DNA from: Terriglobales bacterium
GTDB taxonomy: Bacteria > Acidobacteriota > Terriglobia > Terriglobales > Acidobacteriaceae
Direction of reading: 5' to 3'
Length of the DNA: 64,000 nucleotides
Assembly: GCA_035624455.1 (NCBI GenBank)
Contig: DASPRM010000136.1
Coordinates: forward strand, 1 to 64,000
Shown here piece after piece: positions 55,632 to 62,756 of the stretch. Numbering within the stretch: position 1 is the stretch's first letter; every line of letters starts with the position of its first letter. The translations under genes were made by a program, and so were the position numbers. The notes under the pieces are model-generated. The model made no database searches and was not told the origin of the DNA. It saw only the letters and a program-made list of their open reading frames with translations.

Positions 55632-56110
55632 GCATTGTAACTTCGAAGCAAACTCAGACTTTGGTCCCCACTGACTGGGGCGAATCCCGAAAAACTGTAC
55701 ATTGGGACCATCGCCATATGCGATTTTGTACCCCAGGCATACCCGGGCAATCCCCTTAATTGCACCACTTCGTCCCCACCGGATTACGTTCGTCCCGCTG
55801 ATCACGATCGAGCCACTGGTCAGCATTCTCCGAAATCCTGGAACCAGAAATCCTTCCCCGGAGCAAGGGATTGCGGTTCTTGCAGTTCCAAGGCGCCGCG
55901 CTTGGTGCTGCAACTGCTGACATCCAGTGCAAACCTGCAACGCGTCCGGATCTGAGCAATTCCCGATTTAGCTGTTGCGTTGTGCGCAAGTTTTTGTGTG
56001 CGCGAGGTAGCAGTTTTGCCTTGATCCGGCGCTCGCAGAGCCAAATTCCGTATCGAGCGAGCAACGCCTCACTCGAGTGGGATCGGCGTGGAGATTTTCA
56101 GGAGGAAATA
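55632..56110. other. Leader region of the TonB-dependent receptor gene
   Basis: 479 bases with no supported gene. A weak open frame continues into the receptor from 55871 but lacks coding character, and AGGAGG at 56100-56105 fixes the true start at 56111. No riboswitch is recognised. Confidence 0.5.
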
Positions 56111-59100
56111 ATGATGAAAGACCCTGTCAACGGCAGGCGATCTCGAAGTGGACTGAGATTCGTGGCCGCAACCATATCAATGTTGCTGCTGCTGTGCGCA
56201 GCGGCTCTGGCGCAATTTGAGAAGGGCACCATCTCCGGCACGGTCACGGACACATCCGGAGCAGTTGTCGTCGGCGCCAGCGTAACCGTTACCGCTCCAG
56301 GTACCAATGCGGTTCGGACGACTACTACCGACAGCCAGGGCAGCTATTCCGTCACCAATCTCTCCCCTGGCACTTATGACGTAAAGGTATCGCAAAAAGG
56401 ATTTGGAGATGTTGTCGAGAAGTTCACCGTATCACCCGGTCTGCGCGGGAGCCTGGACATACAACTGCGAACTGCAGGCACGGAGACAACCGTAGAAGTG
56501 GTCGGCCAGACCGAAACCCAGGTCGACACCGAGAGCTCATCGCTCACTCAAGTCGTGGATAGCAAGCGAGTAGCGTCGCTGCCTTCGCTGACTCGCGATC
56601 CCTACGATTTCGTGCAGACGCTAGGCAATGTGAACCAGGACAGTGCCTCCGGGCTTGGAGGCAGAGATGAAATCGCGCGCGGGGCGGGAGTTTCGATCAA
56701 TGGGCAGCGCTCCGCCGGGACTGACATTCTGCTGGACGGTGGGGAGAACGTAGATCTATTTACGACTAAAGTCGGCCAATCAGTTCCGCTTGATTCGGTG
56801 GAGCAGTTCAGCGTAACCAGCAGCAATTTTTCCGCCGAATATGGCCGCGCTTCTGGGGGCGTTATTAATGTTGCTACCAAATCGGGCACCAACGCCCTGC
56901 ACGGCTCGCTTTACGAATTCAACCGGCTCTCCGCCCTGACCTCCAACGATTACGATGACAACGCGCGCGGAAACCCCCGGCAGCGTTACACGCGCAATCA
57001 ATTCGGCTATTCGGTCGGCGGCCCGATCATCAAGAACAAGCTGTTCTTCTTCAGCAGCACGGAATGGCAGCGGGTAAGGAGCAGCGCGAATGTGACCGCG
57101 GTCATACCCGATCCGTCATTTCTGGCGGCATCTGCGCCCAACACGCAAGCCTTCTTTTCCAATCAGACGCTGCGTCCGGGACTGCGGGTCAATCAAGTAC
57201 TGAGTGCGGCCGATGCCGGCGCTCCGGCAACTCCTGCCACGCCTCTTCTGGCGGCATATGGAAATGCGCCGGTGTTTGACGTGGTCAGCTACGCCGTCCC
57301 TTCGGACTCCGGCGGAGGCGCACCCCAGAACAATTACAGCACCGTCAACCGCGTGGATTTTCAGCTCTCCGACAAGACCACGATGTTCGGTCGTTATGCG
57401 CTGTTCAATCAGAACGAGTTCGCTGGGTTCGTCAACAATAGTCCCTATGCCGGCTTTGACACCGGTCAGACGAACTTCAACAACAATTTTTTATACTCGC
57501 TGACCCACGTCTGGAGTCCGCGCCTGGTGAGCGACACGAAAGTGCTGTTTAACCGCCTCAACGTCCAACTGCCCTTAGGGCAGCAGCCGGTTCAACCGAC
57601 GTTGTATTTCAGTTCCGTTTCGGGGGTCCGGGTACAGGGCAACTTTATCAGCCTGCCCGGCTACGCCGCGACAACACCTGGACTCGCCATCCCATTTGGC
57701 GGGCCGCAGAACGTATTTGAAATCTCCCACGCTTTCACCTGGACCAAGGCCAAGCACGAATTCCACTTTGGTGGCGAGTATCTGTATACGCGCGATAACC
57801 GCGCGTTCGGTGCCTTCGAGAACGCCGTCGAAGGACTGAATGGATCCGGGGTCGCTGCCGACCTGGAGCAATTTCTCGCAGGCCAGGCAGGGATTTTCCA
57901 AGTGGTCATTGATCCGCAGGGTAAGTTCCCATGCGCTCGCGACGTGACCGGCAGTGTTATAGCGACTCCAGCTTGCACGGTTAATCTGCCGGTGACGCAG
58001 CCATCGTTTTCGCGCAGCAACCGCTATAACGACATGGCGTTTTACGCGCAGGACAACTGGAAAGTCGCTCCGCGGTTGACGTTGAACCTGGGTCTGCGCT
58101 GGGAATACTACGGAGTGCAGCACAACAAAGATCCGCGCCTCGACTCCAACTTTGTTCTTGGCAGCGGGTCGACTCTGTTCGATCAGCTGCGCAACGGCCA
58201 GGTCTTTACGGTGGCAGCTACGCCGAACAGTCCAGCCAGTCCGGTCGGTGGCCTATGGAATCCGCAGTACCATAACTTTGCTCCTCGGCTCGGCTTCGCT
58301 TGGGACGTCTTCGGAGACGGCAAGACCTCTCTTCGTGGGGGCTACGGCATCGCCTATGAACGCAATTTTGGCAATGTCACGTTCAACGTGATCCAGAACC
58401 CTCCGGCGCAGTTCAACTCCACCTTCACGCCCGCTGGACCGATCACTGCGAGCAATCTAGGGCCCTTCAGCGGAACTGGGACGGCTGTGTTGCCGCCTCC
58501 AAGCCTGCGCTACGTCCGCGAGGACGTGCCGACCGCTTACACGGAAATGTGGAACCTGTCGTTGCAGCGGCAAGTTCTTGGTCACTCGCTCGTTGCCCTG
58601 GAATACAGCGGTGCGCGTGGCATTCACCTCTACTCGATCGAGAACCTCAATCAAGCCGGGTTTGGGGTGGTCTACGAGGGCACCGATCCCACAGTCAATC
58701 CTAACGACCGCCTCAATCGCCAGTACGGAAACCTGAATACGCGCGGTGCCAACGGCTTCTCTTATTACAACGCGTTGAACACGCGCTTTGTGTCCAGCAA
58801 CCTGTTCCACCAGGGACTGGATATCACCGTCAACTACACCTATTCGCATGCTATCGACAATTTGAGCTCAACCTTCAGCGAGACGCCACAAACGGTGAAC
58901 CTCGGCTTGCTGGATCCGTTCAACCCCGCCCTGGACAAGGGTAGTGCGGACTTCGACACACGTCACCGCATCGCCTTGAGCGCGGTCTGGACGCTTCCGT
59001 ATGCCAAGGGAATGCATGGCATCGCGAAGCAGGCTCTGGACGGCTGGGAGTTGGCGCCGATCATCACCGCACACACGGGCCAGCCCTTCACGGTGTTCGA

Positions 59101-59635
59101 TAGCAATGCCTTCAATCCCCGGGATACGGTGGTTGGACGCTACCTTCCGGATGGGGCATTCGGATTGTCAGGCAGTACCAGCACGGCAAGTCCTGTCGGT
59201 CCAAACACGTTCAATTACCTGAACCTGCCGGGATCGCTTACCTATGCCGATCCGTTAACCGGATCGGGTGAGCTGCCGACCTGCGACATGACGACCAATT
59301 CGGCGGGCAACCTGATTTCCACCGGGCAGAACTGCCACTTCCCGGCAAACCTGACCAGGCGGAACACATTCCGTGGCCCAGGCTGGTACAACATCAATCT
59401 TTCGGCGGCGAAGTATTTCCCGATTACGGAGCGCTTCAAGCTGCAGTTCCGTGGCGAGTTTTACAACCTGCTGAATCACTCCAATTACTACGTGCAATCT
59501 GGCGGGCAGGCCGATGCCGGCAACTTCGGCATCGATACTCCTTTCTCCATTGTCGGCAAGAAGGGAGTCAACCCGGCGATCGGTGTGGCGAACGAAAGAC
59601 GCTTCATCCAGTTCGCATTGAAGTTGAATTTCTAA
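56111..59635 (+). CDS. Oar-like TonB-dependent receptor with carboxypeptidase-regulatory domain
   Basis: A 1174-residue outer-membrane protein. Signal peptide (ATISMLLLLCAAALAQ), then a CarboxypepD_reg-like fold (GTISGTVTDTSGAVVVGAS, PGTYDVKVSQKGF), then the plug (SVNGQRSAGTD-type sequence ILLDGGENVD, EYGRASGGVINVATKSGTN) and a long beta-barrel ending in Phe (FIQFALKLNF). Such Oar-type transporters bring in oligosaccharides or peptides with TonB energy. The substrate cannot be told. Start ATG at 56111 after AGGAGG. Followed by two terminators in a row. No sugar genes are adjacent. Confidence 0.94.
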   Translation: MMKDPVNGRRSRSGLRFVAATISMLLLLCAAALAQFEKGTISGTVTDTSGAVVVGASVTVTAPGTNAVRTTTTDSQGSYSVTNLSPGTYDVKVSQKGFGDVVEKFTVSPGLRGSLDIQLRTAGTETTVEVVGQTETQVDTESSSLTQVVDSKRVASLPSLTRDPYDFVQTLGNVNQDSASGLGGRDEIARGAGVSINGQRSAGTDILLDGGENVDLFTTKVGQSVPLDSVEQFSVTSSNFSAEYGRASGGVINVATKSGTNALHGSLYEFNRLSALTSNDYDDNARGNPRQRYTRNQFGYSVGGPIIKNKLFFFSSTEWQRVRSSANVTAVIPDPSFLAASAPNTQAFFSNQTLRPGLRVNQVLSAADAGAPATPATPLLAAYGNAPVFDVVSYAVPSDSGGGAPQNNYSTVNRVDFQLSDKTTMFGRYALFNQNEFAGFVNNSPYAGFDTGQTNFNNNFLYSLTHVWSPRLVSDTKVLFNRLNVQLPLGQQPVQPTLYFSSVSGVRVQGNFISLPGYAATTPGLAIPFGGPQNVFEISHAFTWTKAKHEFHFGGEYLYTRDNRAFGAFENAVEGLNGSGVAADLEQFLAGQAGIFQVVIDPQGKFPCARDVTGSVIATPACTVNLPVTQPSFSRSNRYNDMAFYAQDNWKVAPRLTLNLGLRWEYYGVQHNKDPRLDSNFVLGSGSTLFDQLRNGQVFTVAATPNSPASPVGGLWNPQYHNFAPRLGFAWDVFGDGKTSLRGGYGIAYERNFGNVTFNVIQNPPAQFNSTFTPAGPITASNLGPFSGTGTAVLPPPSLRYVREDVPTAYTEMWNLSLQRQVLGHSLVALEYSGARGIHLYSIENLNQAGFGVVYEGTDPTVNPNDRLNRQYGNLNTRGANGFSYYNALNTRFVSSNLFHQGLDITVNYTYSHAIDNLSSTFSETPQTVNLGLLDPFNPALDKGSADFDTRHRIALSAVWTLPYAKGMHGIAKQALDGWELAPIITAHTGQPFTVFDSNAFNPRDTVVGRYLPDGAFGLSGSTSTASPVGPNTFNYLNLPGSLTYADPLTGSGELPTCDMTTNSAGNLISTGQNCHFPANLTRRNTFRGPGWYNINLSAAKYFPITERFKLQFRGEFYNLLNHSNYYVQSGGQADAGNFGIDTPFSIVGKKGVNPAIGVANERRFIQFALKLNF

Positions 59636-59838: not shown

Positions 59839-60225
59839 ATGCAGAAATCGGATCCTACCGTCGAAAGCGGCGGGGAGGACGTGACACGCGTGGAACGACG
59901 GCGCTGGCCACGGCGGACAATCGATGTCCGTGCCCGGGTGAGCATAAAGAGCAGCGGCGGCCTGACCACGGTCTGTCATGGCAGGGGCAGCGATCTCAGT
60001 GAGTGTGGAATGGCGGTCACCATTCCACTGGAGCTCTCAATCGGTCAACACGTACGACTGGTGATGCTCCTGCCTCGGAGTGACCGGGAAATCCGTATCG
60101 AGGCCACGGTGCGCAACCGCAAAGGGCATCGATACGGCATGGAATTCACATCGTTGTGCCCGCTGGATCGCGAGCTGATCATTGAGCAATCATCCCATTG
60201 CAACACGCCCACCCCGGTGATGTGA
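59839..60225 (+). CDS. PilZ domain protein
   Basis: A 128-residue cytoplasmic protein. The c-di-GMP motifs are complete: RRWPRR near residue 21-26 and DLSECG near residue 52. The rest of the beta-barrel is LELSIGQHVRLVMLLPRSDR. It can bind c-di-GMP by the known motif rule, unlike the altered motif of the protein at 7171. No partner gene in the operon. It is convergent with the OsmC gene, 33 bases away. Confidence 0.82.
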   Translation: MQKSDPTVESGGEDVTRVERRRWPRRTIDVRARVSIKSSGGLTTVCHGRGSDLSECGMAVTIPLELSIGQHVRLVMLLPRSDREIRIEATVRNRKGHRYGMEFTSLCPLDRELIIEQSSHCNTPTPVM

Positions 60226-60258: not shown

Positions 60259-60726
60259 TCACGCGAACTCATAGCTCGACTGGATCTCCATAGCAGGACG
60301 CAGTATGCGGTACACCGGGCATTTGTCCGCGTAGATGCTGTGGACGCGCTCTACCGTGTCGCGCGCTTCCGGCGGAGCCTGCAGGCGGAATTTGACGTAG
60401 ACGCGGCGGATGACCAGGACTCCGCCGTCGGATTCCACCTCGCCGCGTACGTGGGCGATCAGCTTTCCGTGACTGGCGTCGATTTTGCGCGCTTCCAGCG
60501 CGCCACCAAAGGTGCCCAGCATTCAGCCACCCAGGGCGGCAACGATGTAATCGAGTGTCGCCGCATGGGATTCCTTCAGTTGATCAGGCGCCACTCCATA
60601 ATGCTTCGCGATGGCGCCATGCACACTGAACACGACCGGGTGCGGCTCTCCCGGAAGATGGGCTATGCGCAGAGGCCCGGCTTCCCGTTCGATCTTCACT
60701 TCCGAAATATAGACGACGTCCGACAT
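60259..60726 (-). CDS. OsmC-family protein with in-frame UGA at the peroxidatic Cys (candidate selenoprotein)
   Basis: Read through one UGA, the frame gives a complete 155-residue OsmC-type protein. Residues 1-67 are the first strand set and helix (SHAATLDYIVAALGG), then UGA as codon 68 at 60523-60525, then MLGTFGGALEARKIDASHGK and the rest. The second conserved Cys is intact as DKCPVYR (Cys136). OsmC enzymes reduce organic hydroperoxides with these two cysteines, and codon 68 is where the first Cys is expected (usual AAxGGC context). The frame is identical on both sides and no frameshift is needed. GGAGA precedes the ATG at 60726. A point mutation (TGC to TGA) is the alternative. Confidence 0.82.
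60487..60503 (-). promoter_or_regulatory. Candidate bacterial SECIS hairpin
   Basis: On the minus strand, downstream of the UGA: GCGCGC, loop UGGAA, GCGCGC. The stem starts 20 bases after the UGA and the loop at base 26. A G is in the second loop position. These match the general rules for bacterial SECIS elements (apical loop 16-37 bases from UGA, a G in the first two loop bases). U-U-U and A-A-A could extend the stem through a bulge. Confidence 0.7.
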
Positions 60727-60878
60727 GAGATGTCTCCTGATCGGGATTCGGTGGACACTATGATACTTGCGCGGTTGCGAGGCCGACCTCGTGCTAGTCG
60801 GTTTACGGGTCGCCGTCGCCCCGGCTCAGAGTCGGTTAAAATCGCCGCCGCTCGCTATTTCACTTCCGAGTTAGAACA

Positions 60879-61664
60879 ATGTCGCCTAGGCTGATTGCCG
60901 TTTGGGTCTTTGCGGTCGTAGTCTCGATTACTTCGTCCGCTTCCGCGCTCTCACAGGAAACTGGATTCTTAAATCGCAGCCTCACCATAGGGGACGTGGT
61001 TTATCGCTACCAGGTTTATCTCCCTCAGGATTGGACGGGTGACAAGGCGTGGCCCGTGATCCTGTTTCTCCACGGCGCGGGAGAGCGGGGAAGTGACGGC
61101 CTGAGGCAGACGCAAGTAGGGTTAGGAGCAGCCATTCGCCTGGAGGAGGAAAGATTCCCGTTTGTCGTGGTTATGCCGCAATGCCCCAAAGAGAAGTGGT
61201 GGACTGACCCCGAGATGCAACGAGAAGCGTTGAGCGCTCTGGACGCCGCCATGAAAGAGTTTCACGGCGACCCGAGTCGATTGTATTTGACCGGTCTCTC
61301 AATGGGTGGCTACGGGACCTGGTACATTGCAGCCAGCAACCCGGGAAAATTTGCGGCGCTGGTTACGATCTGTGGCGGTGTAGTTCCGCCTAGCGGGCAT
61401 CCTCAACCCATTGCGCTCGGCCCTGATCCCTACGCAGATCTGGCCAAAAAAATCGGTTCCACACCGGTGTGGATCTTTCACGGTTCGAGCGATCCTGTAG
61501 TGCTGCCGAGTGAGTCGCGCAACATGGCATACGCTCTCCGCAAAACAGGCGGAAATGTGAGGTTGACCGAGTATTGGGGCGTGGGGCACGACTCATGGGA
61601 TAAAGCCTATGCCGAGTCTGAATTGCCGCAATGGCTACTCAGTCACACACTGACTAAGGAGTAA
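60879..61664 (+). CDS. Exported esterase/PHB-depolymerase-like alpha/beta hydrolase
   Basis: A 261-residue protein with signal peptide (VWVFAVVVSITSSASA). The alpha/beta hydrolase fold shows VILFLHGAGERGSDG (oxyanion region), TGLSMGGYGTWY with the Ser nucleophile, FHGSSDPVVLPSE (acid) and VGHDSWDKAY (His). It belongs to the group of prolyl-oligopeptidase/phospholipase-like esterases. It may hydrolyse ester-linked polymers or lipids in the periplasm. ATG at 60879. Divergent from the OsmC gene, with 152 bases between. Confidence 0.87.
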   Translation: MSPRLIAVWVFAVVVSITSSASALSQETGFLNRSLTIGDVVYRYQVYLPQDWTGDKAWPVILFLHGAGERGSDGLRQTQVGLGAAIRLEEERFPFVVVMPQCPKEKWWTDPEMQREALSALDAAMKEFHGDPSRLYLTGLSMGGYGTWYIAASNPGKFAALVTICGGVVPPSGHPQPIALGPDPYADLAKKIGSTPVWIFHGSSDPVVLPSESRNMAYALRKTGGNVRLTEYWGVGHDSWDKAYAESELPQWLLSHTLTKE

Positions 61665-62390: not shown

Positions 62391-62756
62391 ATGGCAACGA
62401 CGACAGCCAATCCGGCTACTACTAAAACCTATCCCGTGAACCTTACGCCCAGTGCGGTGGCCAAGGTAAAAGAAATTATGGCGCAACAGAACCCTGTACC
62501 AACAGGCCTGCGGGTAGGTGTGGTCGGCGGGGGATGCTCAGGTTTTTCCTATTCCATGTCGTTTGACAATGGCGCCGGCATGATGGATAAGGTCTTCGAA
62601 ATCGATGGCCTGAAAGTTTTTGTCGATGCGACCTCAATGATGTACCTGCAGGGCGCCACCGTGGATTACGTCGAGACGCTGGAAGGAGCCGGGTTTAAAT
62701 TCGAGAACCCCAACGTTAAGAGCACCTGCGGTTGCGGTTCGTCGTTCAACGTGTAA
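62391..62756 (+). CDS. A-type Fe-S cluster carrier (HesB/IscA/ErpA family)
   Basis: A 121-residue protein that carries Fe-S clusters to target enzymes. The three conserved cysteines are Cys49 (VVGGGCSGFSYSMSF), Cys113 and Cys115 (STCGCGSSF). The central ExDGLKVFVDATSMMYLQG block is typical of the family. AAGGAGATCAG precedes the ATG. It may serve the siroheme/4Fe-4S nitrite reductase and radical SAM protein in the window, among others, but it stands alone. Confidence 0.95.
   Translation: MATTTANPATTKTYPVNLTPSAVAKVKEIMAQQNPVPTGLRVGVVGGGCSGFSYSMSFDNGAGMMDKVFEIDGLKVFVDATSMMYLQGATVDYVETLEGAGFKFENPNVKSTCGCGSSFNV

Follow-up and report, generated by a model that had tools for sequence, protein, structure and literature searches.

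A predicted selenoprotein of the OsmC superfamily in a Terriglobales bacterium, with selenocysteine at the first redox position and a conserved hairpin past its UGA codon

Introduction

OsmC-like selenoproteins have been described in metagenomic surveys, the accounts of which list 3 sequences from the Sargasso Sea in 2005 (PMC1088965) and 5 sequences in GOS (PMC2398784), both sets showing the motif UxxT. The selenoprotein reviews of 2022 and 2026 (PMC9312934, PMC13188914) carry, in their relevant parts, one OsmC entry each, again with UxxT. For the Acidobacteria, a survey of 2006 records 4 selenoproteins of 3 families (PMC1794560), and deep-Sep reports 3 known and 0 new selenoproteins in one Acidobacteriota genome (PMC12013277); OsmC is not mentioned in the relevant passages of either paper. 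According to recent work, the discovery of selenoproteins depends on Cys homologues (PMC12013277, PMC13188914). Selenoprotein genes are also readily annotated as truncated genes.

The gene considered here lies in the window, by which is meant the whole stretch of DNA that was analysed, viz. 64,000 nucleotides from a Terriglobales bacterium. The initial annotation of this gene read a UGA codon within an OsmC frame as selenocysteine and noted that OsmC-like selenoproteins had been reported in metagenomic surveys, a statement which the survey accounts cited above bear out.

Results

An OsmC frame with a single in-frame UGA

The sequence of the minus strand (a strand left unstated in the initial annotation) from position 60726 to 60259 reads as an OsmC frame of 155 residues in which codon 68 is an in-frame UGA. 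There is no other internal stop, the parts before and after the UGA share one frame, and Cys136 is kept, all as first described. A mechanical ORF caller lists the downstream part as an 87-aa ORF (60259..60522) and the upstream part comprises 67 codons, which is the split that had been foreseen. The features of the locus are as follows:

60259..60726, minus strand: predicted Sec-OsmC gene of 155 residues (start ATG 60726-60724, terminal UGA 60261-60259)
60523..60525, minus strand: UGA codon 68, read as selenocysteine (UGA in the 69 loci read, TGC in 7)
60319..60321, minus strand: codon of Cys136, the second conserved OsmC cysteine, in a CP motif (from alignment)
60487..60503, minus strand: SECIS-like hairpin GCGCGCU-GGA-AGCGCGC, nt 20-36 past the UGA (from conservation of pairing)
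60734..60738, minus strand: AGGAG, 7 nt 5' of the ATG, resembling a ribosome-binding site (read from the sequence, function presumed)
55871-59635, plus strand: neighbouring large outer membrane beta-barrel protein with a carboxypeptidase-like domain (Pfam)
59839-60225, plus strand: neighbouring PilZ domain protein (Pfam)
60879-61664, plus strand: neighbouring esterase/hydrolase (Pfam)
62391-62756, plus strand: neighbouring Fe-S cluster biosynthesis protein (Pfam)

The read-through protein matches the Pfam OsmC family PF02566 (E 9e-12; score 45.7 bits, cut-off 27.5), as do all 30 aligned members of its family at E <= 0.001. Among the 14 largest clusters of flanking genes (most flanks 1.5 kb) no widely conserved neighbour was seen, clusters other than the gene itself reaching 4 loci at most, and a search of plasmids gave no match.

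Conservation of the UGA codon among relatives

A UGA at the aligned codon 68 was read directly in 69 loci (56 distinct genes and 13 further ones). In all, about 159 full-length relatives carry exactly one TGA and 7 carry no stop, where the two tallies were counted by eye and the position of the TGA was read in the 69 loci alone; the total of about 166 comes from three profile draws, with overlaps removed, and three relatives from a set of 150 related genomes. The relatives carrying one TGA at the same codon are full-length and 35-73% identical to the window protein. In the draws, full-length matches to the family profile numbered 32 in 396 genomes of the phylum, 85 in 399 of the class and, for another class, 59 in 193. 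The 150 related genomes gave a match in 25 (the UGA form in 22, a remote ordinary OsmC alone in 3), with 23 full-length matches, each having one TGA, and a scan of genome contigs gave 8 relatives, 3 of them from Gemmatimonadota, with TGA at the aligned codon in 8/8.

Partial or interrupted matches were excluded from these counts, viz. G176 and G222 among the phylum genomes; G797, G664, G562, G717:C38, G568, G588, G610:C8 and two remote ordinary OsmC genes among the class genomes; G858, G955, G222 and G908 among the genomes of the other class; and G056, G085:C278, G058:C102 and three remote OsmC genes among the 150 related genomes. The 57-row set that was aligned (56 TGA and 1 TCA) omits 2 duplicates and the loci L067, L074, L079 and L119, which the search pattern missed; the first three of these were read afterwards among 16 further loci, L119 stands outside the 69, and L122 and L124, also among the 16, repeat earlier genes and are uncounted.

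The alignment of codon 68 with its homologues, which had been suggested as a check, thus gives UGA (69 loci read) or Cys (7 genes), and the sole other residue at the site is Ser (TCA) in L061 (G085:C278), a decayed extra copy. Further decayed extra copies of the subfamily are L062/L064 (G058:C102), and one genome, G140, holds three UGA-containing copies (L048, L060, L063). Such decayed copies, together with the separate ORFs listed by the mechanical caller, are what could be cited for the view that the gene is a pseudogene, or that its UGA either terminates translation or is a TGC/TGT misread in sequencing. However, we regard this view as extremely improbable, as the same codon is UGA in the 69 loci and about 159 relatives have one TGA, the protein is conserved on both sides of it, the hairpin described below is under constraint, and the form of the gene is linked to SelA. 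Recurrence of the UGA across many genomes excludes a sequencing error, the case for which the initial annotation had named TGC/TGT reads as speaking against selenocysteine.

Fold and redox positions

An AlphaFold model built on 30 family members (mean pLDDT 94.8) predicts an OsmC/Ohr fold, for which the top structure matches are solved OsmC and Ohr proteins (Foldseek, VIA-align 2). The entry 2onf superposes on the predicted model with a Z of 15.0 and an rmsd of 2.2 over 139 residues, and the PDB entries 2onf, 1ml8, 1ukk, 1nye and 1n2f share its fold from end to end, with Z from 15.0 to 12.7 and an rmsd of 1.9-3.1 for 127-140 residues. However, these entries share only 12-16% identity with the window protein, which has Sec in place of Cys, and a sequence search of the PDB gave no match at E<=0.001. 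Residues such as Arg20, His36, Asp59, Gly71 and Thr72, among others, are the subfamily's own in comparison with solved OsmC/Ohr proteins and are invariant in 30 rows. HHalign comparison with six Cys OsmC proteins (probability 97.5) places Sec68 at the first invariant cysteine, as initially claimed, and Cys136 at the second.

While the fold and both redox positions are those of OsmC/Ohr proteins and 28/30 members weakly match the OsmC peroxiredoxin model TIGR03562 (best 1.7e-7), the window protein itself scores 12.8 bits against the model's cut-off of 85.8 and does not match the Ohr model at E<=1. In addition, Asp59, nine places before Sec68, is placed like the Asp of SPTDL-type OsmC rows; it is an acidic residue near Sec68 in the window protein, but lies one place off the position of the catalytic Glu of Ohr. 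Due to the subfamily's own invariant residues and its score below the peroxiredoxin cut-off, the substrate may differ, and a selenoprotein which acts not as a peroxidase, but as a reductase or transferase on other electrophiles, persulfides or disulfides, is a possibility of some weight, although not the one we prefer.

Two genes of another OsmC type, viz. L114 (G212; LLAALGTUTSIT) and L115 (G272; LLAALGAUTSMT), also have UGA at the first redox position and are candidate selenoproteins outside the window's subfamily. From these sequences, Sec was probably gained more than once in the OsmC fold.

Selenocysteine machinery of the host genome

The host assembly (166 contigs, 97.7% complete) contains selA, selB, selC and selD, the four genes which serve as the criterion for bacterial selenoprotein synthesis and whose presence it had been proposed to check. 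SelA (558 bits), SelB (351 bits), SelD (360 bits) and a tRNA-Sec (66.4 bits) all score above their curated cut-offs; as a tRNA-Ser in the same assembly likewise exceeded the threshold of the tRNA-Sec model, the ARAGORN call of tRNA-SeC (tca) is relied upon for selC. The SelD gene (L017, G000:C95:34543-35478) has one in-frame TGA itself, read as UGA in AAGUAS, and due to this the host selenophosphate synthetase is probably a selenoprotein as well. The 5 other OsmC-domain genes found in the host genome contain no internal stop.

A conserved SECIS-like hairpin after codon 68

In the window, nt 20-36 past the UGA read GCGCGCUGGAAGCGCGC and can fold into a stem of 7 bp closed by a GGA loop. The complete stem of 7 pairs is present in 46/56 UGA genes, against a mean of 2.6 and a maximum of 9 in 1000 synonymous resamplings in which each protein and the codon usage of the family were kept, and standard pairs occupy 364/392 pair cells in the 56 genes (resampled 264 +- 8, maximum 294). 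When the stem partner is slid by 1-3 bases, the number of paired cells falls to 77-270. With a sliding window of 36 nt the dip in folding is deepest at +12 (mean z -1.10; next lowest -0.48), and the apical loop is GGN in 56/56 UGA genes. Outside the 56-gene set, all 7 pairs are formed in 12/13 further loci. Changes within the stem retain its pairing: the fifth pair is A-U in twelve genes and G-C in 40, where GCA..GTG for GCG..GCG pairs an Ala to Val change with a silent one, and two genes have ACC..CGG for GGC..CGC, a change from G-C to C-G.

In the 7 Cys genes, the complete hairpin occurs in 0/7, although the GALEAR peptide is the same in 6/7 of them; in single pairs the difference is milder (40/49 in the Cys genes versus 364/392 in the UGA genes, p 0.013). 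The stem is incomplete in 10/56 UGA genes (L021, L037, L038, L052-L055, L075, L088, L089), and the SECIS of these genes is therefore likely to differ or to be weaker. The fold of the window stretch on its own is unexceptional for its composition (z -1.10; 28/200 shuffles fold as well), and no Rfam SECIS family was matched in the whole window at gathering scores or in 60440-60560 at E<=5. Based upon its conservation, the hairpin appears to be of the bacterial SECIS type, with a G in the apical loop, and binding by SelB is predicted.

Cys forms and their link to SelA

The 7 close relatives without a stop were fetched and read, and each has TGC (Cys) at the site; the idea of a subfamily without any Cys form was accordingly dropped, as these genes are found among the 399 class genomes. 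By a tally made by eye, a close Cys homologue is present in 7 of these genomes versus the full-length UGA form in 72, and due to this imbalance it is possible that earlier discovery work overlooked the family.

A search for SelA in 80 genomes, comprising all 7 Cys-form genomes and a hand-picked part of the remainder (136 were first listed), gave a match in 70/74 genomes with the UGA form versus 0/6 with the Cys form only; G564 carries both forms together, along with SelA. The UGA-form genomes without a SelA match are G752, G806, G539 and G452 (81-94% complete). In the 150 related genomes, SelA was over the cut-off in 21/22 with the UGA form (the remaining one, G133, has a SelA fragment below the cut-off) versus 91/128 without the gene. 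Since SelA is thus common in this group, its presence alone is weak evidence, and the contrast with the Cys-only genomes is the stronger evidence: pooled, SelA is present in 91/96 UGA-form versus 0/6 Cys-only genomes (Fisher 3e-7, a value which ignores relatedness). Of the six Cys-only genomes, which are 71, 72, 89, 94, 97 and 94% complete, five belong to a single genus and the sixth does not. Genus g328 supplied one genome with both forms and SelA, and five Cys-only genomes with no SelA match. All 7 Cys genes fall to the same side of one branch in a quick tree, with a support of 52 and long-branch warnings.

These results also bear upon the reading that the UGA stands for a residue other than selenocysteine (Trp, Cys or that of a near-cognate read-through). 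The residue inserted is not fixed by sequence alone, but the Cys genes occur in genomes without a SelA match, except in G564, where a UGA copy accompanies the Cys gene; the gene's own terminal stop is UGA; and a SECIS-like hairpin lies downstream of codon 68. We therefore consider such decoding very improbable and, based on the conservation, the Cys exchange and the SelA link, have rejected it together with the pseudogene and sequencing-error readings. The three findings which the initial annotation named as counting against selenocysteine, viz. a genome without the machinery, unrelated residues in relatives and a misread TGA, were all looked for and none was found. Its reading of the UGA is instead supported by the machinery, the UGA and Cys relatives, the hairpin and the SelA link.

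Discussion

The frame, the conserved UGA, the Sec/Cys exchange which tracks SelA, the conserved hairpin, the Sec machinery and the predicted fold are all established at the level of sequence. Insertion of selenocysteine at codon 68 is very likely, and the apparently broken gene almost certainly encodes a whole OsmC-type redox protein with an active-site selenocysteine. We are highly confident in an OsmC-superfamily selenoprotein whose SelB- and hairpin-directed Sec68 would be the nucleophile and Cys136 the resolving residue, and which most likely reduces peroxides or similar molecules. In the mechanism proposed, SelB with Sec-tRNA would bind the hairpin that starts 20 nt past codon 68, and the ribosome would insert selenocysteine at the UGA, giving the protein of 155 residues. 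Sec68, within a helix of residues 57-79, would then attack peroxides or comparable small molecules, oxidised or electrophilic, which would be reduced via a selenenic acid and then a selenenyl-sulfide with Cys136 as resolving partner. That the selenol would attack peroxide and be resolved by Cys136 is suggested by the pair of conserved positions within an OsmC/Ohr fold. The peroxidase activity, including the faster peroxidase proposed in the initial annotation, we infer only by analogy with OsmC/Ohr proteins, as we do the substrate, the reductant and the insertion of Sec in the cell.

With more modest confidence, we favour the interpretation that the gene represents an uncatalogued OsmC selenoprotein subfamily across Acidobacteriota and Gemmatimonadota in which Sec is the rule and a Cys form replaces it where the machinery has been lost. 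If this is true, the takeover by Cys would be a natural experiment in losing selenium, and the occurrence of Sec and Cys orthologues of a redox-type selenoprotein side by side in one genus would make what selenium buys measurable.

In comparison with known systems, the OsmC-like selenoproteins of the surveys (PMC1088965, PMC2398784), as far as these accounts describe them, are similar to the window protein in belonging to the OsmC superfamily, in having Sec at a redox position and in having a bacterial SECIS past the UGA. However, the survey motif from marine metagenomes, UxxT, has Thr three places past Sec, whereas the window's subfamily has an invariant Gly71 at +3 and Thr72 at +4 in 30 rows, a comparison made by motif only. 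Among the matches listed in full-text literature on OsmC, organic hydroperoxide resistance and Acidobacteriota selenoproteins, no passage describes this subfamily. The NCBIfam model NF041052 (OsmC_like_Se) likewise covers OsmC-superfamily proteins with Cys or Sec, but its cut-off is 95 bits and the window protein, at 18 bits, is not recognised by it; in 199 genomes of the phylum it had one match over the cut-off, L093, with an ALSCLMN stretch. We therefore file the gene as a member of a new, widespread subfamily within the already known OsmC-like selenoproteins, set apart from the survey sequences by its motif.
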